64,000 bases of DNA from Prevotella sp. UBA7764 (GTDB lineage: Bacteria > Bacteroidota > Bacteroidia > Bacteroidales > Bacteroidaceae): the NCBI GenBank assembly GCA_002481295.1, contig DLDU01000068.1:35861-99860 (forward strand), given 5' to 3'. Both the position numbers and the translations under genes were made by a program. The notes beneath the pieces are model-generated. The model did not search any database. It saw only the letters and a program-made list of their open reading frames with translations, and was not told where the DNA came from. This document shows, in pieces, positions 22,199 through 39,236 of the stretch (its first letter is position 1; each line of letters opens with the position of its first letter).

Positions 22199-22774
22199 AT
22201 GGCACAAGCAAGTATTGACACCCTGATTAAGAACATACTGAGCGATCTGCGCGTGGAACTGACTGATGAGTTCGACCAGAACTTTGAGCGGCAGTCCTAC
22301 TTTGGCCGTGCATGGCAGCGCAGGAAAACTCCTATTGGCGACGGTGCACTGCTACAGAAAAGCGGAGCCTTGCGCCGTAGCATTCACAGCCCACGAACCA
22401 GCGACACCGGCATTACGTTCTCTTCATCGTTACCCTACGCCTCCATCCATAACGAGGGTGGCGAGATTGAGGTAACGGCGAAGATGAAGCGTTTCTTTTG
22501 GGCCAAATACTATGAGGCCTCAGGCAGCGTTAGCCGTAAGAAGGATGGTTCAGAGAGCCGTTCAAAGCGCAACGTGGCCCGTTCTGCTGCCGCTGAGTTC
22601 TACCGTCGTATGGCCTTGATGAAGGTCGGCCAGATGATAAAGATGCCGGAGCGCAGGTTCATCGGTGGTGGCCCCGAAGTGGAAGCCATCGTGCGCAGCA
22701 TCATTGATGAGAATCTGAATGAATATCTAACACAGTACGAAAATGCGAAAAGAGTTTTATCTGGCCGTCAGTGA
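22199..22774 (+). CDS. Phage virion morphogenesis protein, Mu gpG-like
   Basis: 191 aa. LLQKSGALRRSIHSP, LPYASIHNEGGEIEVTAKMK and MPERRFIGG are the signature blocks of the gpG/tail-completion family (HK97 gp10-like fold). The product joins head completion or tail assembly. It is carried with the early-orientation genes rather than in the late operon. Confidence 0.82.
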   Translation: MAQASIDTLIKNILSDLRVELTDEFDQNFERQSYFGRAWQRRKTPIGDGALLQKSGALRRSIHSPRTSDTGITFSSSLPYASIHNEGGEIEVTAKMKRFFWAKYYEASGSVSRKKDGSESRSKRNVARSAAAEFYRRMALMKVGQMIKMPERRFIGGGPEVEAIVRSIIDENLNEYLTQYENAKRVLSGRQ

Positions 22775-23345
22775 ACGGCTCATGCACAGCTACCGTTTGT
22801 CTGATGGTAGCATTCAACAAATCTACAAGGAAGAGGATGTGCCAGAGGGAGCAGAGCACATTATCCAGCATGCGGACTTGTGGAACAATAACGTGGAGTA
22901 TATCGAGCAGGAAACCAACTGGCCGCGTCCGGCTGTGTTCGTTGAGTTCCGGCCTATCCTGTGGGAGCGTATGACCACTCGCGGAGCCAACGGGTACCAG
23001 GCACGTGCAGAAGTACGTCTGCACATCGTCACCGACTGGAAAGGTGGCGCATCGTCAGAGTATAGCAACGAAATGCGACTGCAGAGCATTGAAGATCTGG
23101 ATCTGAGTGAGCAGATACATACTGTCATGCTTGGGCTGCATGGCGACCATTTCGGTGATGTGGAGATACAGGCTACTCTGACGAACCACAACCATGAGGA
23201 GCTGATAGAGAATGTCGAGGTTTACAATGTTACCTTCGTGCGTTCTATCGAGAAAAAGACGCAGAGGATTCGGGTTCCAATGGATGCTAAGTTAGTGTCG
23301 CCCGGAGGTCAGGAAACGGAGGTCGTAGGGCCTGAAATACCCTAA
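22743..23345 (+). CDS. Probable tail-completion/terminator-like structural protein
   Basis: 200 aa, overlapping gpG by 32 bp. Central region FVEFRPILWERMTTRG, ARAEVRLHIVTDWKG and IEDLDLSEQIHTVMLGL resembles tail-terminator proteins, which have the same beta-helix order, but no signature is clear. A virion role is inferred from its place after gpG. A bidirectional terminator follows. Confidence 0.6.
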   Translation: MRKEFYLAVSERLMHSYRLSDGSIQQIYKEEDVPEGAEHIIQHADLWNNNVEYIEQETNWPRPAVFVEFRPILWERMTTRGANGYQARAEVRLHIVTDWKGGASSEYSNEMRLQSIEDLDLSEQIHTVMLGLHGDHFGDVEIQATLTNHNHEELIENVEVYNVTFVRSIEKKTQRIRVPMDAKLVSPGGQETEVVGPEIP

Positions 23346-23373: not shown

Positions 23374-23413
23374 AAAAAAATCCGCAAATCGTTTGGAGGT
23401 TGCGGATTTTTTT
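23374..23413. terminator. Bidirectional intrinsic terminator
   Basis: AAAAAATCCGCAA (23375-23387) and TTGCGGATTTTTT (23400-23412) form a perfect 13-bp inverted repeat with a 12-nt loop. The A run and T run serve both directions: the early operon from the left and the MuF operon from the right. Confidence 0.85.
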
Positions 23414-23422
23414 GTATCTTTG
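23392..23422 (+). promoter_or_regulatory. Promoter of a candidate small RNA
   Basis: TTTG at 23392-23395 (in the loop of the terminator), 19-bp spacer, TATCTTTG at 23415-23422. A complete consensus promoter with no protein gene downstream on this strand. Confidence 0.7.
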
Positions 23423-23429
23423 CACCGAA

Positions 23430-23508
23430 GATGCATTGTAGGAGGCATTCCACATGTCGGCATCGCAAGATGTGCAGGCTACGAAATGACCATTTGCATC
23501 TTTTTTTT
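23430..23508 (+). ncRNA. Candidate small structured RNA, about 80 nt
   Basis: It starts about 8 nt after a consensus -7 element and ends in a T run. AAGATGCA (23428-23435) pairs with TGCATCTT (23495-23502) to close the molecule, followed by eight T (23501-23508). Inside, CACAT (23451-23455) can pair with ATGTG (23470-23474), and GTAG with CTAC. A perfect TAGGAGG and an ATG nearby could also encode an 11-residue peptide, MSASQDVQATK. It lies in the only gap between the converging early and MuF operons. Confidence 0.6.
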
Positions 23509-23510
23509 GT

Positions 23511-24770
23511 TTATATGAACTTCATCATATAAAGCAGCTCTCCGTCTGTTACCTTGCACTTGAACTCTATGGTTCTCCCTTGATAGGTTACTGTATATAC
23601 ATTGAAATTGAAGCTATGGTGTCTGCCCGCCTCAACCCTATCCAGTGTTGCATTTGGGATCCATGAGTTAAAATCAGTGGCGGTTCTAAGAAGGTGAACG
23701 ATATCAGGATCTCTTTTTGCCTTTGCTGCAGTTTCCGTAAAGAAAGCCTTACCAACACCAATAGTGTGCCCGTCCGCTGTTTGCACAAGCGAGCGTTTAG
23801 ATGGTGTGCCGTTAATCGTTGTAGTGGCCAAATTGTTATCGGCCCACTGTATCGCCTTTTCTCTCGCCGTTCTAAACTCCTGTGGTGTAAGTCTCTGGCT
23901 GGTTCTGGAGGCTTGAGCCTGTCTGATCAATCTACATGCAGCGCAAAGCTCATTCTCCGGCACGAATGCCAGGTTAAGTTTGCCTTTGGCGATATCGCAG
24001 TCACGACAACGCTTGATGGTGTACGGGTTGTAGTCAGGGAACGTCTTCTGCTCCATACCAGCATTAAACTGGAAGATGCCTTTGGTGTCCTTTCCTGTGG
24101 CCTGTGCTCCCCGTTGCATGGCCTCATCGCGTGGGGTGGTCGGATACTTGGTCTTGCGAACCTGTACGACTGTGCAGCGGCAGTTCCAGCCGTTGGGTGG
24201 GTAGTATGTTTGCCAGAACGGATCGCTTGGCGGCAACGTCACACCATTAAGTGCAGCGTGTTCCGGGCGTACCTTGCTATCACCAGCCGTGCGGTACTGG
24301 AGGTTGTAGCGGTCGCCGTCCTGTTCTATCTGCTCCCACTTGCCAGCCATTTCAGCCGATGACTGCACGAAGTTGTACTCAGCACGGAGATAGTTTTTGT
24401 TGTAGGTTTCGTCTATCTTTCGAACGTCGTTTAAGAACTGTTCAAACGGCTTTCGGTTGCCGCTCTCATCAACCAGGGATGGGAAGGCCTCATTGAGTTC
24501 GTGGAACGTCTTAATTCCGCTGAAGATATAATCAGACTGTTGGAGCCGCTGACGCATACGGTCGGACATGGCTGTCTGGGAGAAAGCCGCATCGAGCACC
24601 TGGGCATGCGTATCGATGAAATCCTGCACGGGTTTCTCCCTCAGGATATCAACACTGAACTGCGCTCCAGCTTTCGAGTGAAGCGACTGCATCATGGGTT
24701 CGAAGAGGGCTGAAAGCTGCTGGCGTAGCGCGTCCGTTTCCGGGCTTGCCAACTCCAGAGTTCCGGGCAT
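23511..24770 (-). CDS. MuF-like phage head morphogenesis protein with C-terminal extension
   Basis: Minor capsid/portal-proximal protein of the Mu gpF class, 419 aa from the ATG at 24770. The diagnostic MuF core is DPFWQTYYPPNGWNCRC, preceded by the helical N-terminal half. A CxxC pair (RCRDCDIA, CAACR) follows. Residues about 290-419 form a further domain (MKFI end, GRTIEFKCKVTDGELLYMM). Many MuF proteins end in PBECR-type toxin-like domains and this may be one. Twenty sense codons continue upstream of the ATG, in the frame reached by a -1 slip at the end of the portal gene. A portal-MuF fusion is therefore likely (see 24802-24836). Confidence 0.85.
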   Translation of the reverse strand: MPGTLELASPETDALRQQLSALFEPMMQSLHSKAGAQFSVDILREKPVQDFIDTHAQVLDAAFSQTAMSDRMRQRLQQSDYIFSGIKTFHELNEAFPSLVDESGNRKPFEQFLNDVRKIDETYNKNYLRAEYNFVQSSAEMAGKWEQIEQDGDRYNLQYRTAGDSKVRPEHAALNGVTLPPSDPFWQTYYPPNGWNCRCTVVQVRKTKYPTTPRDEAMQRGAQATGKDTKGIFQFNAGMEQKTFPDYNPYTIKRCRDCDIAKGKLNLAFVPENELCAACRLIRQAQASRTSQRLTPQEFRTAREKAIQWADNNLATTTINGTPSKRSLVQTADGHTIGVGKAFFTETAAKAKRDPDIVHLLRTATDFNSWIPNATLDRVEAGRHHSFNFNVYTVTYQGRTIEFKCKVTDGELLYMMKFI

Positions 24771-24801
24771 GTCAGCCAGCAGCTCTGTATATCGGCTGTG
24801 C

Positions 24802-24836
24802 AGCCCCTCGTAGTCAGAGGGGCTTAGTCGAAAAAA
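24802..24836 (-). promoter_or_regulatory. Programmed -1 ribosomal frameshift signal, portal to MuF
   Basis: On the minus strand the portal gene ends CGT TTT TTC GAC TAA. T-TTT-TTC (24836-24830) is a perfect X-XXY-YYZ slippery heptamer in the right phase. Five nucleotides (GACTA) later comes an 8-bp GC-rich hairpin, AGCCCCTC / GAGGGGCT, with a 7-nt loop. After a -1 slip the frame runs through 20 codons (RLSPSDYEGLHSRYTELLAD) into the MuF ATG. The fusion would be about 886 aa. Confidence 0.75.
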
Positions 24837-26170
24837 CGGCTCTCATTTGGCTTGTGTTGGCCTTTCTTTTCATCATCGGGCGTTTCCCCGCCGTTGCTCC
24901 CGTTATCGTCATGTTGGGGCTGTGTGGGGCCAATCAGGGGCTGCTGCTGTCTGCGTTCCCCAACAGGGATGCCGTATTTGTTCTCGAAGTACTTGCCCTC
25001 AACCTCATAGTTGTTGACAACCAGTTCCTCGACGGCCTTCTGCTGCTCAGGCGTGTAGTCCACAGAGTCATCCCATTTGAACTGCAGGCCTTGAAGTGGG
25101 AACCCGTGCCGTATCATTCGTGGTATGAGCTGCTCGTTGATGATATCGCACAGCATATCACGGTCGGCATCGATAAGGTTCTCGAACACCTCCAGATGCG
25201 TTTCTGACTGACTGAGTGAGCTACCGTCCTCGATGGTCATTGTCTGACCGATGACCAGCTTCGAAAGTTCAGAGTTGGCGCGATCCACTCGTTTGTCGTA
25301 CACGTTGAAGGCATCGCCCTTTGAACTCTCCACCACCTCGATATCGGTTCCCTCCTGAAACAGTCCCCAACCCTCGGTTCCCATTTCGGCCATCATCTTT
25401 TCCATCTTGGCCAGCTCCTTATCGTCACGGGTCGTGGTGTGGGCTATGCGCATAGGCATGCCGAAGATTTCAGCGAAGGTGTCCCAAAAGGCCAACGCGT
25501 TCTTTTTGGGTATGGTCTGAGTGGCTGCCTTCAGGAATAATCCCAAGGCCTCAGGCTGTCCCACCTCCACGAGCCAGTCGCAGAATGGTGGCTGGTGGTA
25601 GTCGATGCCAGTATGCCAGTCCATACCCAATTCGGGGATGACGCGGTGATATTCAGGAATGACGTGCTTACGCTCTATGAGCCTCACGCCGTTATATGTA
25701 AGCCTTCCGTTGATATCGGTTGTCAGGTCGCCCAACTCTATGAGCGAGTGGCCCCAATAGTTAGCATCGAGCGCATAGTGCAAGAGCTGCTTGAACCAGG
25801 GCTTTGCAAAGAACTTGGCGGCTTCCTCATTCTCTTTCTCCTTATCATCTACCAGTTTGAATGCTTTAGCCAATACAAAACCCTCGCGCTGCTGGATACA
25901 GCCCGAAAGATGCAGGTCGATATCCACGTCACGGTAGATATCATAAAGACGCTGGCGGTTGGGGTTATCAACGTTGATGGCCATCTGCCATGCGTGCCTC
26001 CAGTCACCGATATCCTTACGAGTCAGCGCGTCGGTCTGACGCTGTAACTCCACGACCATCTTTTTCAGTCGCTTGCGGTCGCCCTCCTTTGCCAGATTGA
26101 ACGTACCGTATTGTGAATTCAGTACACGCCCTGATAGCGGGTTCTGCTTGTTATTTCCTTTCTTTTTCAT
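24824..26170 (-). CDS. Portal protein, Mu gp29-like (DUF935)
   Basis: Forms the dodecameric DNA gate at the head vertex. 448 aa. The order follows the DUF935 family: RDVDIDLHLSGCIQQREGFV, then FFAKPWFKQLLHYALDANYWG, GTDIEVVESSKGDAFNVYD and TMTIEDGSSLSQSETHLEVF. The C-terminal tail is low-complexity and Gln/Asp-rich (QPQHDDNGSNGGETPDD). The gene ends in a slippery TTTTTTC with a hairpin, suggesting a fraction of ribosomes make a portal-MuF fusion. It is fourth in the leftward packaging operon, before MuF. Confidence 0.9.
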   Translation of the reverse strand: MKKKGNNKQNPLSGRVLNSQYGTFNLAKEGDRKRLKKMVVELQRQTDALTRKDIGDWRHAWQMAINVDNPNRQRLYDIYRDVDIDLHLSGCIQQREGFVLAKAFKLVDDKEKENEEAAKFFAKPWFKQLLHYALDANYWGHSLIELGDLTTDINGRLTYNGVRLIERKHVIPEYHRVIPELGMDWHTGIDYHQPPFCDWLVEVGQPEALGLFLKAATQTIPKKNALAFWDTFAEIFGMPMRIAHTTTRDDKELAKMEKMMAEMGTEGWGLFQEGTDIEVVESSKGDAFNVYDKRVDRANSELSKLVIGQTMTIEDGSSLSQSETHLEVFENLIDADRDMLCDIINEQLIPRMIRHGFPLQGLQFKWDDSVDYTPEQQKAVEELVVNNYEVEGKYFENKYGIPVGERRQQQPLIGPTQPQHDDNGSNGGETPDDEKKGQHKPNESRFFD

Positions 26171-26173
26171 ACC

Positions 26174-26593
26174 TTACCAATTATGCTTTAGTTTCGGCTG
26201 TGAGCTATACTTGAAAAGGAAGCCTGTAGGCTCTCCGTCTTCATCAGTGGCCAAAGGTAAGTCAGGCAAGATCTTCTCGGCCTGTACGCCCTTCAGCCAA
26301 TCGAGGGCGCGTTCGTAACGCTTCTCGCGGATCTGCATACCCATATTCTGGGGCAGCGACGCGGCCATGTGGTACAGTGCAATATCACAGGTGTACATGA
26401 CCACAAGCTGGTTGCGGTTATCACCATCGGCACTGAATATGGCCTGGCAGTCATACTTGGGGCGTAGGTAGCCCGCTATTTCCTCGATGGCCTCCTTCTC
26501 GGCTTTGGCCCGGTTCTCGGCACTCACCTGAGTAACGATGCGTAGCGCACCCTCACCGATAACCACCTTGTAATCTTCGTCTGTGATGAACAT
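26174..26593 (-). CDS. Gp36-like phage protein (DUF1320)
   Basis: 139 aa. MFITDEDYKVVIGEGALRIV start, EEIAGYLRPKYDC and MYTCDIALYHMAASLPQNM blocks, and MQIREKRYERALDWLKGVQ match the DUF1320/Mu gp36 family, a head-tail connector component. Lies 3 bp from the portal gene. Confidence 0.8.
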   Translation of the reverse strand: MFITDEDYKVVIGEGALRIVTQVSAENRAKAEKEAIEEIAGYLRPKYDCQAIFSADGDNRNQLVVMYTCDIALYHMAASLPQNMGMQIREKRYERALDWLKGVQAEKILPDLPLATDEDGEPTGFLFKYSSQPKLKHNW

Positions 26594-26595
26594 AT

Positions 26596-26784
26596 TTATA
26601 ATTGTTTTTTTAATTCCTCATAACTGTATCTTTCGATATAGTGCTTATCCCCATTTTTCATAGAGACTACATAACTCGTGCTATATCCGTCGTAATCTTC
26701 TTTGAGTGAGCTAATATCGTCGATATTAACCTCAATAGTTCCACCATATCGCCCGCTGCCTATCAGATGTGCAAACTTTGCCAT
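26596..26784 (-). CDS. Small phage protein, unknown
   Basis: 62 aa, beta-rich (GSGRYGGTIEVNIDDISSLK, YVVSMKNGDKHYIERYSYEE). Sits 2 bp after the Gp36-like gene in the same operon. No family recognised. Confidence 0.6.
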   Translation of the reverse strand: MAKFAHLIGSGRYGGTIEVNIDDISSLKEDYDGYSTSYVVSMKNGDKHYIERYSYEELKKQL

Positions 26785-26791
26785 AGTTTCG

Positions 26792-27022
26792 TTATTTAGT
26801 TACGAACAAAGCGCGTTTCTCGATATCCTGAACCTTCACGCCTTTCCTGAACTGATGCGTGGCCACCATTTTCTTGATGTCCTGTTTAGCCACCACCACC
26901 AGTTTTCCATTAACTACTACTACGAGCTGTTTACGGCCCGTCAGCTTCTGAAGCTTAACGGCCTTTTTGACGGCGCGTTTGTAACGCCATGCGTTGTACA
27001 AGTCTTTAATCAGTTGTATCAT
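26792..27022 (-). CDS. Small basic phage protein
   Basis: 76 aa from the ATG at 27022 (MIQLIKDLYNAWRYKRAV). A longer frame exists but would overlap the terminase 3' end by over 100 bp. Strongly basic helix, then a beta segment (KQLVVVVNGKLVVVAKQDIK). Function unknown. Confidence 0.55.
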   Translation of the reverse strand: MIQLIKDLYNAWRYKRAVKKAVKLQKLTGRKQLVVVVNGKLVVVAKQDIKKMVATHQFRKGVKVQDIEKRALFVTK

Positions 27023-27023
27023 A

Positions 27024-28583
27024 TTACCATGTATTTTTGGGGCTCGGACGTTTGCCGAACCTCGGTGTAAACTTTTGTATGCGCGTGTTCTTTTGTAATA
27101 TATAGATGGCTCCCTCGTCGGCATCCGGCGCGTCATCGTTGCCGCTCATTCCCTTTTGGAAAGCCAAAGTCTGCTCAAGTCCGGCCTGCATGTCCGGGTC
27201 ATCTTTCTGCGACTCATCGTAGAACACAAAGCCACGTTCCCATAACGGACTGATTGCCTCTATACGCTGGAACTTATCGGGCTTCTTTCGTTTGTCGCCT
27301 GTGATGGGCAGTTGGTAGCCTCTAAGCTCTCCCTCAGTGGTGAAGTCATCGAGTATCATATCCTGCATGAAGGAAGCCTCCATTGCAAAGCGGATGGCAA
27401 TGCCCTCTTCCTGGCTCCACTCATAGATATCATAGCACCACCTTACCATTTCAGCAAGGGAGGTCTTACGGACGAAGGCCCTCAGTTGCCAGAGGTTCGT
27501 CTTCTGCTTTCCCCATAGCTTCGCGGACTTGGTATCGTTCTTTTGGGTTCCCTTCCAAGATGGGTCGATGTAAAGGACGAATTCAGAGAACTCCTTCCAC
27601 TTGGGACGCTTGGCCCAACGTATCCACTCATGCTTGAACACGTTACCCTCCACAATCGGGTTGTGCATCATCTCCTTGTTCCAAGCGCGGTAGCCGACAA
27701 ACTCTTCATAAGCCCGTGCCTCTTCCTTAGTCCATTTATCCTTCCATACAGGCTCGCCATCGTTGTCAACTGCATAGACAGTCGAAACGTGTACGCCCTT
27801 TGTGGCACAGATGTTGGCCAGTACTGAGGTCTTACTAATGAGGTTGCCCACCATGATAAAGCGGCCACGTCCTACATCAAGCGCACCGAAAAGGGCCTCT
27901 TTTACCCAATCCGTCAACTCGCCCACACGTCGCTTGTTTCGGCATAGCTCATCATCGTCGAGGTCATCTATAACGATGTAGTCGGGACGTGCCTCGCGCT
28001 TTCTGAGACCACGTGGCGACTGCCCGCGACCGCATGCCAAGAATGAAACGCCGTTACGTGTGGTGAACTCTCCCTCCGTCCAATCGCCCAAGGTCATCTG
28101 CTCCCCAAAGTCGGCAATAATGCGCTTGTTGTACTGGAGCTCAGCTTGAATGTCGCCCAACAGTCGGTTGGCACTATCCTCAGACTTACCAACAATCACC
28201 ATGAAGTTGATCAGCCGTTTGGGCTGGAATATCAACCAAAGCGGCATGAAGATGTCGAAATGCGTGGACTTGGCGTGACCGCGTGGCCATTTGAACACGG
28301 CCTTGAGATTGGGCGTGTTCTTAACCTTCTGCGCTGCCTGGTTATGGAACGGGGCATTGTGGATAATGCGGACGGGCTCACCCGTCACCTTATCGCGCAG
28401 TGTGAGGAAATGGGGAAAATAGTACTCACAGAAAGCGGCATAGTTTTTCTGGAGCCTGCGAATACGCTGCTCCTTCTGCGTCTGGCTTTCACGTGTGAGC
28501 TGTGAAGTCTCTGTAAGCGACTGTATTTGCTTACAGTGTTCCTGCCATTGCTCAAGTGCCTGTTTCCTTTCCGCTGCTGTCAT
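27024..28583 (-). CDS. Terminase large subunit, Mu gp28-like
   Basis: DNA-packaging motor and headful nuclease, 519 aa. Walker A-like KWPRGHAKST, Walker B DYIVIDDLDDD, followed by the coupling region MVGNLISKTS. The RNase H-like nuclease begins at FVLYIDPSWKG (first metal Asp). Later acidic positions are AMEASFMQD and QAGLEQTL. Partner small subunit gene is 12 bp upstream. The transcription direction is opposite to the other late genes. Confidence 0.9.
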   Translation of the reverse strand: MTAAERKQALEQWQEHCKQIQSLTETSQLTRESQTQKEQRIRRLQKNYAAFCEYYFPHFLTLRDKVTGEPVRIIHNAPFHNQAAQKVKNTPNLKAVFKWPRGHAKSTHFDIFMPLWLIFQPKRLINFMVIVGKSEDSANRLLGDIQAELQYNKRIIADFGEQMTLGDWTEGEFTTRNGVSFLACGRGQSPRGLRKREARPDYIVIDDLDDDELCRNKRRVGELTDWVKEALFGALDVGRGRFIMVGNLISKTSVLANICATKGVHVSTVYAVDNDGEPVWKDKWTKEEARAYEEFVGYRAWNKEMMHNPIVEGNVFKHEWIRWAKRPKWKEFSEFVLYIDPSWKGTQKNDTKSAKLWGKQKTNLWQLRAFVRKTSLAEMVRWCYDIYEWSQEEGIAIRFAMEASFMQDMILDDFTTEGELRGYQLPITGDKRKKPDKFQRIEAISPLWERGFVFYDESQKDDPDMQAGLEQTLAFQKGMSGNDDAPDADEGAIYILQKNTRIQKFTPRFGKRPSPKNTW

Positions 28584-28595
28584 GGGGCAGTGAGT

Positions 28596-29069
28596 TTAGA
28601 GTTCGGCACTTGGGGCCATCTTTTCCATGAGGAACTGGTTCTGGTACTTGTTGATGGCCTTGATGAGTTCGGGGGTGATTTCCGGGTCAAACTCAGCATT
28701 GTACTGGAGCCATTTGTTGAACGCCATGAATACCTCGATGGCATCTACCACGTTGGCCTTCTTATCAAGTTTCTCGACTACGGCACTCAGCTTAGACAGC
28801 TTATCGGCCAGTGAGCCAATCAGTGTCGGGTCGTTGGACTTGTTGACGTTCTCAATGAGTTGGTCAATAGTAAGCAGCAGTTTGTTCACCAGTTCCGGGC
28901 GTGTGATGTTCTTGGCGGCGCGTGCCTCCTTCCATCCTTCCTTCGTACACCAGTTCGATATGGTAACGCGTGATACGCCCAACCGTTCTGCAATTTCCTG
29001 TTGCTCCATGCCGGACATATACAGTGAACGTCCGAGCTGTTTCTTGTTTTCAAGTTCTGCTTTTGTCAT
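28596..29069 (-). CDS. Terminase small subunit-like HTH protein (Mu gp27-like)
   Basis: 157 aa from the ATG at 29069. The upstream ATG at 29105 would place codons inside a 23-bp palindrome and is less likely. LGRSLYMSGMEQQEIAERLG then SRVTISNWCTKEGWKEARA is a clear helix-turn-helix of the terminase small subunit type. A helical oligomerisation part follows. It should recognise phage DNA for packaging. First gene of the leftward operon. Confidence 0.8.
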   Translation of the reverse strand: MTKAELENKKQLGRSLYMSGMEQQEIAERLGVSRVTISNWCTKEGWKEARAAKNITRPELVNKLLLTIDQLIENVNKSNDPTLIGSLADKLSKLSAVVEKLDKKANVVDAIEVFMAFNKWLQYNAEFDPEITPELIKAINKYQNQFLMEKMAPSAEL

Positions 29070-29088
29070 TGCGATATTACTTTTTATT

Positions 29089-29215
29089 GCGATTTTGCAG
29101 TGCAAAATTGCATAAAAAGGGCCACACTAACAAAAAACGGTGTACTCGTTGCAGCCTTTACTGCAAGCGTTGCAGCGTTTTTTGGATGGTCGCAGGAAAG
29201 TGCGTAATATTGCAG
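29089..29215. promoter_or_regulatory. Divergent late control region with TTGCAG sites
   Basis: A 23-bp near-perfect palindrome, GCGATTTTGCA-G-TGCAAAATTGC (29089-29111), lies between the two late operons. TTGCAG occurs at 29095, 29149, 29170 and 29210, and its complement CTGCAA at 29161. TAATATTG at 29205-29212 is a near-match -7 element for the rightward operon. These are candidate binding sites for the late-gene activator. Confidence 0.5.
29149..29183 (+). promoter_or_regulatory. Possible attenuator before the protease gene
   Basis: Three segments, TTGCAG (29149-29154), CTGCAA (29161-29166) and TTGCAG (29170-29175), can pair 1:2 or 2:3. The 2:3 hairpin has a GCG loop and is followed by CG and six T, as a terminator. 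Stems are only 6 bp. Confidence 0.35.
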
Positions 29216-29237: not shown

Positions 29238-30173
29238 ATGAGTAAGCGAGTAAGAATTACCAATGAAAGCGTCAACAGCTACGGCTTCCGGGTTCTGACC
29301 AGCGGAATAGATCTGGAGCAGTACAGACGCAATCCCGTACTCCTGTATATGCACGAGCGCGGTAATGTTATAGGTTACGTGAAAGACCTGCAAGTTGAGA
29401 ACGGCGAGGTGACCGGCGAACTGGTATTTGATGAAGCCAGTGAGTTGAGTATCCGATGCAAGAAACAGTTCGAGGTTGGAAGCCTCCGAATGGTAAGCGT
29501 CGGTTTGGATCCGAAGGAGACCAGCGGTGCTCCTGAGCTGCTGCTTGAGGGTCAGACCAGACCAACCGTCACCAAGAGCAAGTTGGTGGAGGTGTCACTT
29601 GTGGATATCGGAGCCAATGACGATGCCATTAGAATGTACAACGAAGGTACAGCTATTGAATTAGGAAAAGACGGCAACTGCCTGTTGCCATTACTGAGTA
29701 ATAACCCCATCAATCAAACAACAATGGATTTAAAGAAGTTAGCCCTACAGTTGGGCCTGCCTGAGACGGCAGACGAGGCAACCGTTCTCGCGAAGATTGC
29801 CGAATTGCAGAAAGAGGCCGGAGCGAATGTAACGCTCAAGGCTGAGAATGACAAGCTGAAGCTTGCAGGTATTACAACTCTCGTGGACAAAGCCATCACC
29901 GAGAAGAAAATCACTGTCGAGAATAAGGAGCACTTCCTTAACCTCGGTAAGACCATCGGTGCTGAGGAACTTGAGAAGACTCTTGCAGCCATGTCGCCCA
30001 ACGTAAAGCTGAGCGGTATCATCAACCATCAGGGTGGCAGTCCCGCACAGCAGGGCTCATACACCAAGCTGAGCGAGGTTCCTGAGGCAGAGCTGCTGAC
30101 AATGCGTCAGTCAGATCCCGCAACCTACAAGCGTCTGTTCAAGGCCGAGTATGGTTATGAGTGTGAAATCTAA
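29238..30173 (+). CDS. Prohead protease / scaffold protein (Mu gpI/gpZ-like)
   Basis: 311 aa. The first half is a prohead protease: YGFRVLTSGIDLEQYRRNPV, the likely catalytic His in YMHERG, and the Ser-containing MVSVGLDP with LVEVSLVDIGAND. The second half (from about residue 163) is a helical scaffold region (KLALQLGLPETADEATVL). An internal ATG at 29724 starts this half in frame, as Mu makes gpZ from within gpI, so a separate scaffold may be produced. First gene of the rightward late operon. Confidence 0.87.
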   Translation: MSKRVRITNESVNSYGFRVLTSGIDLEQYRRNPVLLYMHERGNVIGYVKDLQVENGEVTGELVFDEASELSIRCKKQFEVGSLRMVSVGLDPKETSGAPELLLEGQTRPTVTKSKLVEVSLVDIGANDDAIRMYNEGTAIELGKDGNCLLPLLSNNPINQTTMDLKKLALQLGLPETADEATVLAKIAELQKEAGANVTLKAENDKLKLAGITTLVDKAITEKKITVENKEHFLNLGKTIGAEELEKTLAAMSPNVKLSGIINHQGGSPAQQGSYTKLSEVPEAELLTMRQSDPATYKRLFKAEYGYECEI

Positions 30174-34627: not shown

Positions 34628-34639
34628 TCCGGGACTGCC

Positions 34640-34933
34640 ATGAAGGAAATCGATTCAAAACAGATTGATGCGTGGAAGAAAGCGCACGGCGACGTTTTCA
34701 AGGTAGAGGTTGACGGTAAGGTCTGCTACCTGAAGAAGCCAGACCGCAAGGTGCTGGGAGCCGCTTCCGTTCTCGGAAAGAACGACCCGATGAAGTACAA
34801 CGAAGTCCTGCTGGAGAACTGCTGGTTGGATGGCGATGAGGAAATTAAGAAGGATGACAGCCTGTTCCTGGGCGTGTCAAGCCATCTTGCAGAAATCATC
34901 GAGATCAAGACCGCAGAGATAAAAAAACTCTAA
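34640..34933 (+). CDS. Tail assembly chaperone, zero-frame product
   Basis: 97 aa between tube and tape measure, where tailed phages encode the tail chaperone (lambda gpG, Mu gp41). It has DVFKVEVDGKVCYLKKPDRK and DPMKYNEVLLENCWLDGDEE. It ends ATA AAA AAA CTC TAA, a slippery site. A -1 slip gives the longer form described next. Confidence 0.78.
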   Translation: MKEIDSKQIDAWKKAHGDVFKVEVDGKVCYLKKPDRKVLGAASVLGKNDPMKYNEVLLENCWLDGDEEIKKDDSLFLGVSSHLAEIIEIKTAEIKKL

Positions 34934-35121
34934 GCCGGACAGGTTTAAAGGATAAGCGCGGATGGCTCTTCCTCGGCGATGCGCTCATTCGCGCTTATCT
35001 TCATTTCGACCCCTCCGACCTGTCTGACGAAGAATGGGCGATGCAGATAGGGATGGCAGAATATATCAGGGCCGACTTAACAAATTCACTCACCATTAGT
35101 TTACGAGCATGCCTACGTTAG
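34921..35121 (+). CDS. -1 frameshift extension of the tail chaperone
   Basis: A-AAA-AAA (34921-34927) is an in-phase slippery heptamer two codons before the stop. Re-reading from 34927 opens 64 codons (KRGWLFLGDALIRAYLHFDP and on to TAG at 35121), ending 13 bp inside the tape measure gene. The 160-aa fusion corresponds to the conserved gpGT-type product. No strong hairpin was found after the site. Confidence 0.72.
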   Translation, partial: KKTLSRTGLKDKRGWLFLGDALIRAYLHFDPSDLSDEEWAMQIGMAEYIRADLTNSLTISLRACLR

Positions 35122-38100
35122 AATATACTTTCTCCATCCAAGACCAAGCCAGTGATAAGCTGCTACGGATAACGGCTGCCAGCCAGCCGCTCATCAGTGC
35201 GGTTACTACCGTGCAGGATAAGATGGCCGCTGCCGGTACACTGATGAATGAGACGGGCGGTAGCATTACTGCCCTGAAGGCACAGATTGACGCGCTGAGC
35301 GCAGAACGCGACCTGCTTCCGGCTGATGGTCTGGGAACTATCGCCCAATACAACGAACGCATCGGAGAGCTTCAGCAGAAGGTGTCTGACCTGCAGACCG
35401 CCAAGCCGAAGCCCGTCACCGTTCCTTACACATTTACCCTGAATGACCGTGTCTCTGGCGGTCTTCGGAAGATTAACACAGAGAGCGAGCACGTCCGCAG
35501 CGCTATGGATGGCGTTGGCCAGAAGATGAAGGCCGCAGACGCATTGATGGACGCGACGGGCAGAAGCGTCGGTGCGCTTCGTGCCAAGATAGAGGCCCTT
35601 CGTGCTGAGCGCGAGTGGATCCCCTCGGACAACCTCGATGCCATCCGTGAATATGACAAAGAAATCAAGTCGCTGGGTGATGAGATAGAGCGTGTGGAAC
35701 GCCTTACCAGCGGCACAAGTAACTTGAGCAAGTGGGCCGGTGACTTGGCAAGTAGCGTCCCCGGCATCGGACTGCTCAAGAACCCCATCGTTCAAGCTGG
35801 AGCCGCGATGATTGGAACGGCCAAGTCTGCCATGACCTTCGACCAGAACATGGCACAGGTGAATATTACCACACTGCTTGAAGGAGAGGATCTCGAAAAC
35901 CTGAAGAAAGGCATCAAGGGCGTGGCAGAAGAGTTCGGCGCGGACGCTGCAACGGTTCCTTTGGCTTTCGACCTTATCAACTCACAGATCAACGATGCCG
36001 ATAAGTCCATGAATGTGCTGGCTGCCAGTATTAAGGGTAGCAAGGCGGGCTTCGCGGACGTGAACACCGTAGCCTCAGCACTGGCACAGACCGTGTCACT
36101 GTTGGGCGATGTTGATGCCAATGAGGTGCTGGACGTGTTCTTCGCATCAAAGCGAATGGGTGCGGTGGACTTTTCCAGCTTGGCACAATACCTGCCGAAA
36201 CTGCTGTCAACAGGTGTCGGCATGGGTATTGACTACAAAGACGTATCAGGCGCATTCTCCTACCTGACTGGTAAGGGCCAGAGTGCCGACCAGGCCACCG
36301 TTATGCTTCAGAACGCCATGTCTATGCTTGGCAGGGGTGACGTTCGCGATAAGATGGCAAAGGCTGGCGTGAAGGTCTTTGATGAGCAGGGCAAGATGCG
36401 TGGCATGACGGATATCTTCGGCGACCTTAGTAACCTGATGAACGGACGCTCTGATGAGGAACGCTCACAGCTGCTGGAAGGTTTCGGCATTGTGGATAAG
36501 GAGGCAAAGGGAGCCTTTAACGTCCTGATGGCCGATATGGAAAAATACAAGGGTATTGTTGAAGGTGTTCAGGACGCTACTAAGAACGAGGAAGGTAACA
36601 AGGCCCTCGCAGCCAGTAAGAACACCGTTCAGGAGGCGGAGGAAGCGTGGAACCGCTTTAAGAACGTAGGCCTTTCCATCGGCGAGCAGATGCTACCTAC
36701 TATCTCCACCGGCCTTGAAACATTCTCCACACTTATTCAGGCTTTGTCGCCTGTAGTACAGTTGGTGGCCCCGATTATCAGTGGCGCGTTCTCTGGTGTC
36801 AGCGTGGTACTGAAAGGCGTTACTTTTGTTGTTAGGACACTGATTGACTTTTTCGGTGGCTGGCTGAGTTACCTACAGGAGGGACAGCCTCTCGTTGTCG
36901 GCTTTACCGCTGCACTTGCCGCACTCGGAGTGGTATGGGCTGCCAACACGGCCATTGCCAAAGCCGATATCGTATGGCAGGGCATCAAGAATGGCCTTAC
37001 CGTCGTTTCGACTACTCTTACGGAGGGATGGGCCGCAGCACAGGCATTGCTAAACGCCTCCTTCCTTGCCTGCCCGCTGACGTGGGTTATAGCTGCTATC
37101 GTTGCGGTTGTCGCTGCCGTAGCTGCTGCATGGCAGAAGTTCGAAGGCTTCCGTGTTGCAGTTCTTGGCGCATGGGGCGTAGTTAAGGAGTTCGGACGCG
37201 CACTCGTGAGTGCCATTGTGTCACCGATTAAACAGATTCTGAAAGGTATTGGAAGTCTTGGCGAGGCTATTGCCAACCTCTTTGAGGGCAATTTCGATGC
37301 AGCCGCGACAGCAGCCAAGCAAGGCTTCAAAGATATAGGAAAGGGCGTGCTTCAGTCATCGCCCGCAGGTATTGCCGTCAACACGTGGAAAAACGGCAAC
37401 TATGCCAAGGCATGGGAAGATGGCAAGCAGGCCGGACACCAGAGCTGGGCAAACTCACAGTCTGAGAAAGCCAAGTCGGCAGCGGAACTGCCGAAGGAGC
37501 TTGAGGCCGCAATGAACGTATCAGAGACCGCTGCTCCTGCTGTCAGCACTCAAGACCTGTTGAAAAAGATGGATAAGAGCGGCAAGGGTGGTAAGAGCGG
37601 CAAGGGATCCAAGACCAAGCAGACTCTTAACCTGAACGAAGAGGCTACCAACTATGCGCAGAGTGCCAACTATCTGGCAGCTACGCAGAAGCTGGCTCCA
37701 GTAACGGCAAAGCTGCTGCCTATCGGTGACGTTGCTCAGGCTCCATCCGTCAATGGCGATATCGCCAAGACACAGGCCATCACTCAGACCAATAGCGCAC
37801 TGAAGGTGGACATTTCCAAGCAGGAGTACGAACCAGAAGGCACAAACTACCTGAGCGATATCATGGCCAATGTCCGCAAGATAGCTGCTGCTGTCATGCT
37901 ACCGATGGCCGTATCTTTGGCCAGCCCCTCAGAGGCCTCAGCAACCACCAACATACTGAGCCAGTCGAAGACACAGAACGTGTCGGCTTCTTCTATGACT
38001 GTACAGTCTGACGCGCTCAGTCTGTCAAGCAATGACAACGGATCCGTTATCGACCTGAGCAAGCCCTATGAGGTTACATTGCCAGAAATTGTCATCACTC

Positions 38101-39236
38101 CTGGTTCTGAGAGCAAGTCATTGGCAAATACCGTGCTTTCTGCTCCTTCGGCTGTCAGCAACCTATCCAATGCCCTGACGCTATCGGACACCAGCAACCA
38201 GGCATTCGACAACGCCGTTGCCATGAACGGGCCACAGGCCATGCCGAAGCCTTACGAGGTGACGCTACCCGAAATCGTCATCACTCCTGGTTCTAACAAT
38301 ACGGAGCTGGCACAGAATATCGAGTCGGCATCGCTGATGGGCGACACACTCACAGAGGCAACGGCTCAGACCGAGACGCTGAATGCTGCCGGTGATATTG
38401 CCATGCAGTCAGTCGAGAACCGCTCGGAGGCTAATAGTCTGGGTAACTTCTGGAACCAGCAAGGCGGTGCTTCGATGTCGATGCCCTCATTCATGAGCAG
38501 CTCTTCATCGTCCAGCAGCTTATCTGATGCCCTGTCGATGGGTGACACCAGCAACCAGGCATTCGACAACGCTGTTGCCATGAACGGGCCACAGGCCATG
38601 CCGAAGCCTTACGAGGTGACGCTACCCGAAATCGTCATCACTCCTGGTTCTAACAATACGGAGCTGGCACAGGATATCGAGTCGGCATCGCTGATGGGCG
38701 ACACACTCACGTCTGCATCATCTACAGGCGACACCGTTTCTGAGGCATCCACACAGAGCGAAGCCGTGAATATCTCCAATGCCGTGCCGGAGCTGACAAA
38801 CGCACGGGAAAAGGCAGAGCCTAAGAGAAAAGGCATTCGCGGATGGCTTGCCAATAAGTTCCAGCCGCTGCTTGCATCCGTCGGTGGTACATCGGCAGAA
38901 CTTCATAACCTGACAGGCGGTGACACGATGCAGAGCGTGAACGCCACATCGGACACGCTCAACCAGTCGATGGGCAACTATGCCGACAACAGTATCTTGA
39001 TGCCGTCAATGTCTGAGAGCCTTTCCGACGCTACCGATATCGCCAGCTCTGACAACAGCCAGAGCCAGACTTTCAACAGCAGCGTTCAGGAAAGCAGCAG
39101 CAACGGCAGCCGTAACGTTACCATCGACCGTGTATGCGACCAGATAGTTATCAACGTAGAGAATACCGACGGACAGGGTGCAGAGGAAATCCGCAGCCGT
39201 ATTCTGGAGGTGCTCAATGAAATAGTGGAGGGATAG
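35109..39236 (+). CDS. Tail tape measure protein
   Basis: 1375 aa, fixing tail length. N-terminal coiled coils with a duplicated block (ALKAQIDALSAERDLLPADG and ALRAKIEALRAEREWIPSDN). Then a TMP core (FDQNMAQVNITTLLEGEDLE), several hydrophobic helices about residues 560-680 (VVGFTAALAALGVVWAANTA), and a long Ser/Thr-rich C-terminal part. The C-terminal part repeats PYEVTLPEIVITPGS three times. Two of the copies sit in a 167-bp near-identical DNA repeat. Starts inside the frameshifted chaperone. Confidence 0.92.
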   Translation: MPTLEYTFSIQDQASDKLLRITAASQPLISAVTTVQDKMAAAGTLMNETGGSITALKAQIDALSAERDLLPADGLGTIAQYNERIGELQQKVSDLQTAKPKPVTVPYTFTLNDRVSGGLRKINTESEHVRSAMDGVGQKMKAADALMDATGRSVGALRAKIEALRAEREWIPSDNLDAIREYDKEIKSLGDEIERVERLTSGTSNLSKWAGDLASSVPGIGLLKNPIVQAGAAMIGTAKSAMTFDQNMAQVNITTLLEGEDLENLKKGIKGVAEEFGADAATVPLAFDLINSQINDADKSMNVLAASIKGSKAGFADVNTVASALAQTVSLLGDVDANEVLDVFFASKRMGAVDFSSLAQYLPKLLSTGVGMGIDYKDVSGAFSYLTGKGQSADQATVMLQNAMSMLGRGDVRDKMAKAGVKVFDEQGKMRGMTDIFGDLSNLMNGRSDEERSQLLEGFGIVDKEAKGAFNVLMADMEKYKGIVEGVQDATKNEEGNKALAASKNTVQEAEEAWNRFKNVGLSIGEQMLPTISTGLETFSTLIQALSPVVQLVAPIISGAFSGVSVVLKGVTFVVRTLIDFFGGWLSYLQEGQPLVVGFTAALAALGVVWAANTAIAKADIVWQGIKNGLTVVSTTLTEGWAAAQALLNASFLACPLTWVIAAIVAVVAAVAAAWQKFEGFRVAVLGAWGVVKEFGRALVSAIVSPIKQILKGIGSLGEAIANLFEGNFDAAATAAKQGFKDIGKGVLQSSPAGIAVNTWKNGNYAKAWEDGKQAGHQSWANSQSEKAKSAAELPKELEAAMNVSETAAPAVSTQDLLKKMDKSGKGGKSGKGSKTKQTLNLNEEATNYAQSANYLAATQKLAPVTAKLLPIGDVAQAPSVNGDIAKTQAITQTNSALKVDISKQEYEPEGTNYLSDIMANVRKIAAAVMLPMAVSLASPSEASATTNILSQSKTQNVSASSMTVQSDALSLSSNDNGSVIDLSKPYEVTLPEIVITPGSESKSLANTVLSAPSAVSNLSNALTLSDTSNQAFDNAVAMNGPQAMPKPYEVTLPEIVITPGSNNTELAQNIESASLMGDTLTEATAQTETLNAAGDIAMQSVENRSEANSLGNFWNQQGGASMSMPSFMSSSSSSSSLSDALSMGDTSNQAFDNAVAMNGPQAMPKPYEVTLPEIVITPGSNNTELAQDIESASLMGDTLTSASSTGDTVSEASTQSEAVNISNAVPELTNAREKAEPKRKGIRGWLANKFQPLLASVGGTSAELHNLTGGDTMQSVNATSDTLNQSMGNYADNSILMPSMSESLSDATDIASSDNSQSQTFNSSVQESSSNGSRNVTIDRVCDQIVINVENTDGQGAEEIRSRILEVLNEIVEG
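38187..38353 (+). repeat. Direct repeat copy 1 in tape measure gene
   Basis: 167 bp nearly identical to 38544-38710, 357 bp (119 codons) apart, so the reading frame is kept. It encodes DTSNQAFDNAVAMNGPQAMP and the PYEVTLPEIV block. Confidence 0.9.
38544..38710 (+). repeat. Direct repeat copy 2 in tape measure gene
   Basis: Second copy of the 167-bp in-frame repeat. Only a few silent or conservative differences were seen (for example AACGCC versus AACGCT, and Asn versus Asp before IESAS). Confidence 0.9.

Follow-up and report, generated by a model that had tools for sequence, protein, structure and literature searches.

At this locus the gene for a phage portal protein overlaps a second reading frame, displaced by −1, that encodes the head protein MuF, and the question it raises is how MuF is made: from a start codon of its own, or by ribosomes that shift into the −1 frame just before the portal stop and read on into MuF. 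The locus lies in the window (the whole stretch of DNA that was analysed, 64,000 nt) within a terminase-to-MuF packaging block (23511-29105, minus strand) that is inverted relative to its neighbours at 22199-23345 and from 29238 on, both on the plus strand. The first-pass annotation had described the end of the portal gene as an in-phase T-TTT-TTC, a 5-nt spacer and an 8-bp GC hairpin with the stop codon in between, and every one of these elements is in place.

The portal-MuF junction in the window

26174-26593, minus strand: Mu gp36-like head-tail adaptor, next gene upstream within the packaging block (PF07030)
24824-26170, minus strand: portal protein gene (Portal_Mu, DUF935), 448 aa (PF06074, E = 2.8e-75; phrog_113, portal)
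24836-24830, minus strand: slippery heptamer T_TTT_TTC in the register of the portal frame (from the sequence)
24829-24825, minus strand: 5-nt spacer, GACTA (from the sequence)
24826-24824, minus strand: portal stop codon, TAA (from the sequence)
24824-24802, minus strand: putative stimulatory hairpin, 8 bp with a 7-nt loop (RNA fold; pairing and covariation in 46 relatives)
23511-24842, minus strand: −1 frame ORF, stop to stop (ORF reading)
24830-24771, minus strand: fusion-only segment, 20 codons, RLSPSDYEGLHSRYTELLAD (codon table over 47 representatives)
23511-24770, minus strand: MuF (Phage_Mu_F) gene with the conventional start at ATG 24770, 419 aa (PF04233, E = 6.4e-18; phrog_220, minor head protein)

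Both domain assignments are secure, the portal scoring 254.2 bits against a curated cut-off of 23.9 and the adjacent MuF 66 against 29.6. The same portal is found in RUG14503 (L014), a Prevotellaceae MAG, with 100% identity (99.6% when the whole length is compared), which makes a relative of Prevotella the probable host. Read on the minus strand, the portal ORF ends CGT TTT TTC GAC TAA, and its TAA lies between the slip site and the hairpin, the last base of the stop being common to the stem, whose arms AGCCCCTC (24824-24817) and GAGGGGCT (24809-24802) pair with each other. The −1 frame is open only from 24842, so that just 19 nt (24824-24842) are common to both frames, and the heptamer sits inside this strip. 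From 24842 the −1 frame runs open to 23511, which bears out the earlier claim that it is free of stops for the 20 codons ahead of the MuF ATG; a one-base slip back gives a portal-MuF fusion with a calculated length of 886 aa, again as had been estimated.

The 67 nt from the heptamer onward have a predicted folding energy of −23.2 kcal/mol (z = −3.24). A scan of the 64-kb window for T_TTT_TTC plus the hairpin pattern, with up to three mismatches, returned one match, at this junction, where 0.01 were expected; the scan pattern had a loop one base short, and the site itself therefore matched with two mismatches. No Rfam 15 family matched positions 24400-25200 at E values up to 1. A transcription terminator was considered and rejected, there being no terminator-like site on the minus strand of 23400-26300.

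Judged from sequence and comparison, the junction is very probably a programmed −1 ribosomal frameshift signal, shared by a large family of Mu-like viruses that infect Bacteroidota and giving both portal and portal-MuF. It has the marks of tandem slippage, namely an in-register X_XXY_YYZ in the overlap, a conserved downstream structure and −1 coding from the slip site. Ribosomes on the portal message would reach U_UUU_UUC, where the GC hairpin that follows after 5 nt would slow them; in some of these passages both Phe-tRNAs, one in the P site and one in the A site, would re-pair one base back. Unshifted ribosomes would meet the stop one codon later and yield the 448-aa portal; shifted ribosomes would continue through RLSPSDYEGLH... 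to the 886-aa fusion. Both the occurrence of shifting in the cell and its efficiency are things that we infer.

Frame, heptamer and hairpin among relatives

The comparison drew on viral contigs, GenBank phages, GTDB genomes and further genomes related to that of the window. A portal match was present in 235 of the 236 sequences collected; 24 without a MuF match were left out, as were 14 more with a portal score of 140 or less (or, in one case, as L006), leaving 197 loci that form 126 clusters at 90% portal identity (MAFFT alignment), 112 with two genes and 14 with a single in-frame fused gene. The control-window rate and the stem, −1-peptide, Phe-codon and tree work used representatives of an earlier 127-cluster table with nearly equal counts, in which the alignment rows are not all equally long. 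Among the 14 excluded MuF-bearing loci, the truncated close kin L003, L019 and L032 have the signal, L138, L096, L141 and L101 have the −1 geometry without a heptamer, and six others are in frame 0 or +1.

MuF lies in the −1 frame in 106 of the 112 two-gene clusters, in +1 in four and in 0 in two, one of the latter (L131) being a fused gene with a premature stop inside the portal. A slippery heptamer built of T and A is present at 103 of the 106 −1 junctions (80 T_TTT_TTC, 12 A_AAT_TTT, 6 T_TTT_TTT, 1 A_AAT_TTC and 4 A_AAA_AAA/G), always within 60 nt of the portal stop and within 15 nt in 79; two of the other three junctions have no heptamer and one has only GGGAAAG. When clustering is done at 50%, the −1 class makes up 31 of 45 clusters, and the T/A heptamer is found in 28 of the 31. 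Among 21,200 control windows placed within the portal genes of the relatives and matched to the overlap in size (at most 90 nt), 4.1% contain some X_XXY_YYZ with Y = A/T and 0.03% contain T_TTT_TTC. Phenylalanine codons elsewhere in these portals are TTC 1077 times against TTT 529 times; the Phe-Phe pair at the junction is encoded as T_TTT_TTC in 81 two-gene and 5 fused representatives, as T_TTT_TTT in 6 and otherwise in 5. Portals that carry T_TTT_TTC are as little as 18% identical in pairwise comparison (median 47%), and they fall on both sides of the midpoint root of the portal tree, a quick tree with long branches.

A search of viral contigs that started from the signal instead of the proteins matched 111 stretches, and at the 109 loci examined a portal lies in frame upstream in 106, MuF at −1 downstream in 108, and both in 105; the search pattern was modelled on known members and covers some of the −1 peptide, and about half of the junctions overlap with the comparison set (40 of the first 79 were already in it). 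Sequence ends account for three of the four misses. They do not account for the fourth, L325, which has the signal and MuF at −1, with no portal match in the upstream frame despite 3 kb of sequence there.

Covariation of the hairpin was evaluated in 46 members of the window's clade (42 of them distinct) over a 40-nt element that aligns without gaps; they were picked by a common end position of the stem, and the set does not include L001, a 47th member whose sequence is that of the window. In these, 99.4% of stem cells are paired, compared with 28-57% for slid versions of the stem. Doubly changed cells number 33 against 7.6 ± 2.1 in shuffles, and the covariation score is 0.301 against 0.077, a value that none of 500 shuffles reached. 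The three inner pairs vary with compensation (C-G/U-A; A-U/U-A/G-C; C-G/G-C/A-U), and in L202 the stem is kept though the peptide there differs.

Beyond this clade the stem begins 4-6 nt past the heptamer in 77 of 81 T_TTT_TTC two-gene representatives, and the 45 nt after T_TTT_TTC (86 sites) have a median folding energy of −16.0 against −7.9 elsewhere in the same loci, with only 65 of the 86 sites in the lowest 5% of local folding energy. At the 13 A_AAT_TTT or A_AAT_TTC −1 sites the best stem is 7-11 bp long in ten and 8-11 bp in nine, with varying sequence. Stems outside the 46-member test were chosen as the best available, which inflates their pairing and makes the 46-member test the fairer one. 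The corresponding 71-nt stretch of the hankyphage folds no better than shuffles (z = −0.94), with its hairpin contained in the minimum-energy structure. Four −1 junctions (L122; L145, which is Peternella_1; L149, which is fF4; and L060) consist of A-runs with no convincing hairpin.

Alignment of related phages had been proposed as the check on the signal, and most relatives came out in its favour: the T/A heptamer is kept in 103 of 106 −1 junctions and the hairpin covaries, while a few distant relatives have lost the signal. In lotta8-1 and FPSV-S1, MuF is in +1 with its own ATG near the portal stop; in L042 the MuF ORF lies 369 nt downstream; and in phage Mu, by annotation, the F gene is in +1 with its own ribosome-binding site. 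L117 has the signal out of register with the portal frame, in +1 geometry, and is either a damaged or mis-assembled copy or an instance of another mechanism. Loci that look damaged are L005/L009, L028/L136, L117 and L131.

Fused genes, a proposed tether for MuF and other routes to MuF

Five of the 14 fused clusters (L037, L108, L110, L135 and L144, the last from a Porphyromonas phage; 832-865 aa) carry T_TTT_TTC at the joint, followed after a 6-nt gap by a 6-8 bp GC stem of the GCCCC/GGGGC type with differing loops, and their −1 frame stops 20-27 codons on. The portals of these five are 46-67% identical to one another, and L131, described above, is a sixth fused gene with the T_TTT_TTC signal. 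L109, L040 and L083 have A_AAT_TTT with a −1 stop after two codons; a stem begins 4 nt on in L109 (10 bp) and L040 (8 bp) and is weak in L083. In L033, L071, L119, L132 and L156 the joint has an A-run, the −1 frame stops 3-9 codons later and no stem is convincing. L007 lacks a heptamer at its joint. Altogether a T/A heptamer is present in the 70-codon joint zone of 13 of 14 fused clusters, where the rate in the rest of these genes (31 events, 11,035 codons) predicts 18% per zone. This zone was set post hoc and the clusters are related, so the binomial value of 2e-9 overstates the case. A-runs also arise easily from a lysine-rich linker, which counts against the A-run junctions and joints as signals.

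In the tree, fused L109 and L040 lie among A_AAT_TTT two-gene kin, L132/L156 and L071 lie beside A-run ones, and the T_TTT_TTC fused set groups with L148, a two-gene cluster with T_TTT_TTC. From this placement it would seem that the slip site was retained through more than one change in the frame of the stop. These side branches would thus be inverted, as far as their sequences tell, frame 0 giving the fusion and a shift giving a short portal.

What such a signal would achieve, we infer, is that MuF is covalently tethered to some subunits of the portal ring and not to the rest. The tether would fix MuF at few copies and hold it at the vertex, within the head, and the best reading of the data is that frameshifting sets the number of MuF-carrying portal subunits. 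We lean, with some reserve, towards a broader view in which a family-wide RNA element sets the make-up of the portal ring and the fixed fraction of tethered MuF, including its variable C-terminal cargo, in which the logic has been flipped more than once with both products retained, and in which flipped genes keep the heptamer type of their kin. If so, each head would receive tethered internal proteins at its vertex in a small and defined number. A conserved portal-MuF frameshift would explain simply how no more than a few copies of an internal head protein come to sit on a ring-shaped portal.

The predicted structure of the window's MuF (pLDDT 74.1) fits a tether, its first 30 residues being mostly of low confidence or disordered with a short helix, ahead of an ordered core from residue 32. 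A Foldseek search of MuF against solved structures gave no match at E ≤ 0.001 and was uninformative. From about residue 299 on, the model has a separate C-terminal domain with no Pfam match at E ≤ 0.01. Elsewhere MuF C-termini are toxin-like (L134:1576-3246 and L187:3504-5528), the domains matched being a papain-fold glutamine deamidase (PF15644, E = 8.2e-17) and, weakly and under the cut-off, CdiA_C; given that some are toxin-like, the device would also dose head-carried cargo. Within the MuF frame of L182 (4766-6622) there is intein/Hint-like sequence, all four such matches being below Pfam cut-offs. In L187 and L197 the conserved FFRLSP..GLHQRY peptide is separated from the MuF domain by some 190-200 additional residues, and in L197 these include HELAHMI, which we take to resemble a zinc-peptidase motif.

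The alternative that best survives accepts a real frameshift and denies the tether a lasting role: the shift would only fix a low rate of MuF synthesis, and the fusion would then be cut by the head protease. We regard this as unlikely while giving it serious weight. The window has a prohead-protease-like gene at 29238-30173 (Peptidase_S78, E = 3.4e-05; Mu-like_Pro, E = 2.3e-07), and the stretch just past the slip site is where disorder is predicted; against this, no cleavage site was identified, and a device that set only a rate would leave unexplained why fused lineages retain the signal.

Synthesis of MuF from its own start, perhaps coupled to termination of the portal, would make the heptamer and hairpin incidental or give them some other role. 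In the window, ATG 24770 stands at codon 23 counted from the slip, a little ahead of the predicted core, and because of this position some free MuF may be made there by a minor route. For hankyphage p00 (L143, 3769-5208), GenBank starts MuF at an ATG that overlaps the stop of the portal; CTG stands at this position in several relatives, which makes the annotated start doubtful. The own-ATG MuF genes of lotta8-1 and FPSV-S1 and the F gene of Mu with its ribosome-binding site favour the same explanation, each in the +1 frame. As a general route, a conventional MuF start is rejected in view of the frame bias, the missing ATGs and the conserved −1 peptide. Independent starts would not be expected to place MuF in one frame in 106 of 112 clusters, and an ATG in the MuF frame lies within 30 nt of the portal stop in only 4 of the 106. 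The first ATG of that frame comes at a median of codon 47 (100 representatives, 2 with none), which falls in the helix FxxMMxxL, the first core helix of the predicted MuF model. Counting GTG and TTG as well raises the number with a nearby start to 35 of 106, partly through GTG made by the stem: the GTG at codon 9 (11 of 47) arises from the hairpin sequence, and others have GAG, CTG or GCG there.

The codons ahead of the ATG had been said to read like protein, and in the 47 representatives they do, running FFRLSPxDYxGLHxRY from the slip site with third-base changes beyond the hairpin (CAC/CAT, CGN/AGR, TAT/TAC), so that the peptide is conserved, through synonymous changes, ahead of any common start codon. 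We therefore consider initiation at an independent start very improbable as the explanation of the junction. The scarcity of ATGs, the heptamer in 103 of 106 −1 junctions and the covarying hairpin support the original proposal that a −1 signal would fuse the portal to MuF.

Slippage of RNA polymerase at the T6 run, adding a U and letting a normal ribosome read the fusion, draws on the runs of 6-7 T at most junctions and on the longer A-runs of four −1 clusters and five fused joints. A homopolymer run is not conserved in all members: 12 −1 clusters with AAATTTT and one with AAATTTC keep the rule for tRNA re-pairing with no run, and the register, the short spacer and the covarying stem are needs of ribosomal frameshifting. 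For the family as a whole we find transcriptional slippage hardly tenable; it could operate in the A-run lineages L122, L145, L149 and L060, and the A-run junctions, two-gene and fused alike, are candidates for transcriptional rather than ribosomal slippage. That the split is a sequencing error or a decayed gene, the true gene being an ordinary in-frame fusion like those of 14 of the 126 clusters and, in the accessible text of PMC7302621, of Microbacterium phages, can for practical purposes be dismissed despite the damaged look of L005/L009, L028/L136, L117 and L131, given that the −1 offset and slippery heptamer recur at 103 of 106 junctions in many assemblies and isolates and with TAA, TGA or TAG as the portal stop.

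Comparison with known frameshifts and portal-MuF pairs

Programmed frameshifts in phage structural genes are known mainly for tail chaperones and for extensions of coat and tail proteins. The first-pass annotation knew of no portal-MuF frameshift, and we likewise found no report of one in searches of an open-access library. The mechanism proposed from the sequence would thus be known in kind and new in its target, the portal and MuF.

The tail chaperone frameshifts (lambda G/GT, SPP1 gp17.5/17.5* and Mu, the last by −2) likewise give a short and a C-terminally extended form of a phage structural protein, and that of SPP1 17.5 is reported, in the part of the source available, to use the same UUUUUUC heptamer (PMC6316719). 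Tail chaperone pairs precede the tape measure, whereas the site considered here joins portal and MuF and does not lie between the major tail and tape measure genes; the tape-measure-like gene of the window is at 35109-39236. The same phage likely has a separate tail-chaperone frameshift, at A_AAA_AAA, in 34628-35121 on the plus strand, where an ORF (34628-34933) ends ATA AAA AAA CTC TAA and the −1 ORF continues to 35121, at the tape measure start. Frameshift-extended proteins of two lengths are also described for the T7 and T3 coat protein, the phage A2 head protein and Listeria phages in a review (PMC5009743) in which the word 'portal' does not occur; those extensions, several of them Ig-like, are on a major coat or tail protein, whereas here a whole second head protein would be added to the portal.

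In-frame portal-MuF fusion genes, which the first-pass annotation had correctly mentioned for some other phages, are described in Microbacterium subclusters EA3, EA5 and EA8 and cluster EB (PMC7302621, as far as the available text goes), besides the 14 of 126 clusters here. The Microbacterium and Porphyromonas fusions hold both functions in one gene, as the window's predicted fusion would; they would make the fusion only, unless the signal retained in genes of the Porphyromonas type works. In GenBank, the Porphyromonas phages have a 'portal' annotation across the joint, which in L144 is one 'portal protein' gene, and the junction of hankyphage p00 is covered by two genes that overlap. Over 351 nt around this junction, p00 and the jmh43 hankyphage record are identical. 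If our reading is correct, genes of Bacteroidota prophages (hankyphage and Porphyromonas phages among them) have been miscalled in two opposite directions, either with a MuF gene given an invented start or with a single 'portal' gene. The word frameshift is absent from two hankyphage papers (PMC12135933, which reports a mass-spectrometry study of the capsid, and PMC6199706). The published statement that comes closest is in the PRFect paper (PMC10885494), which lists genes for VIP2 and MuF-like proteins as 'False Positives' and observes that where one genome has a fused gene, another may rely on frameshifting.

SPP1 gp6/gp7 and Mu gp29/gp30 also pair a portal with an adjacent MuF, but there the two interact as separate proteins, and the Mu MuF gene has its own annotated ribosome-binding site in the +1 frame, unlike the −1 frame of the window. 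In dnaX, the clamp-loader gene, frameshifting gives tau and gamma. Like dnaX, the fused clusters with T_TTT_TTC or A_AAT_TTT would shift to an early stop and a shortened product, and this arrangement, a long frame-0 product with an early −1 stop, belongs to the side branches and not to the window. The dnaX-like fused clusters and the window mirror each other inside a single gene family.
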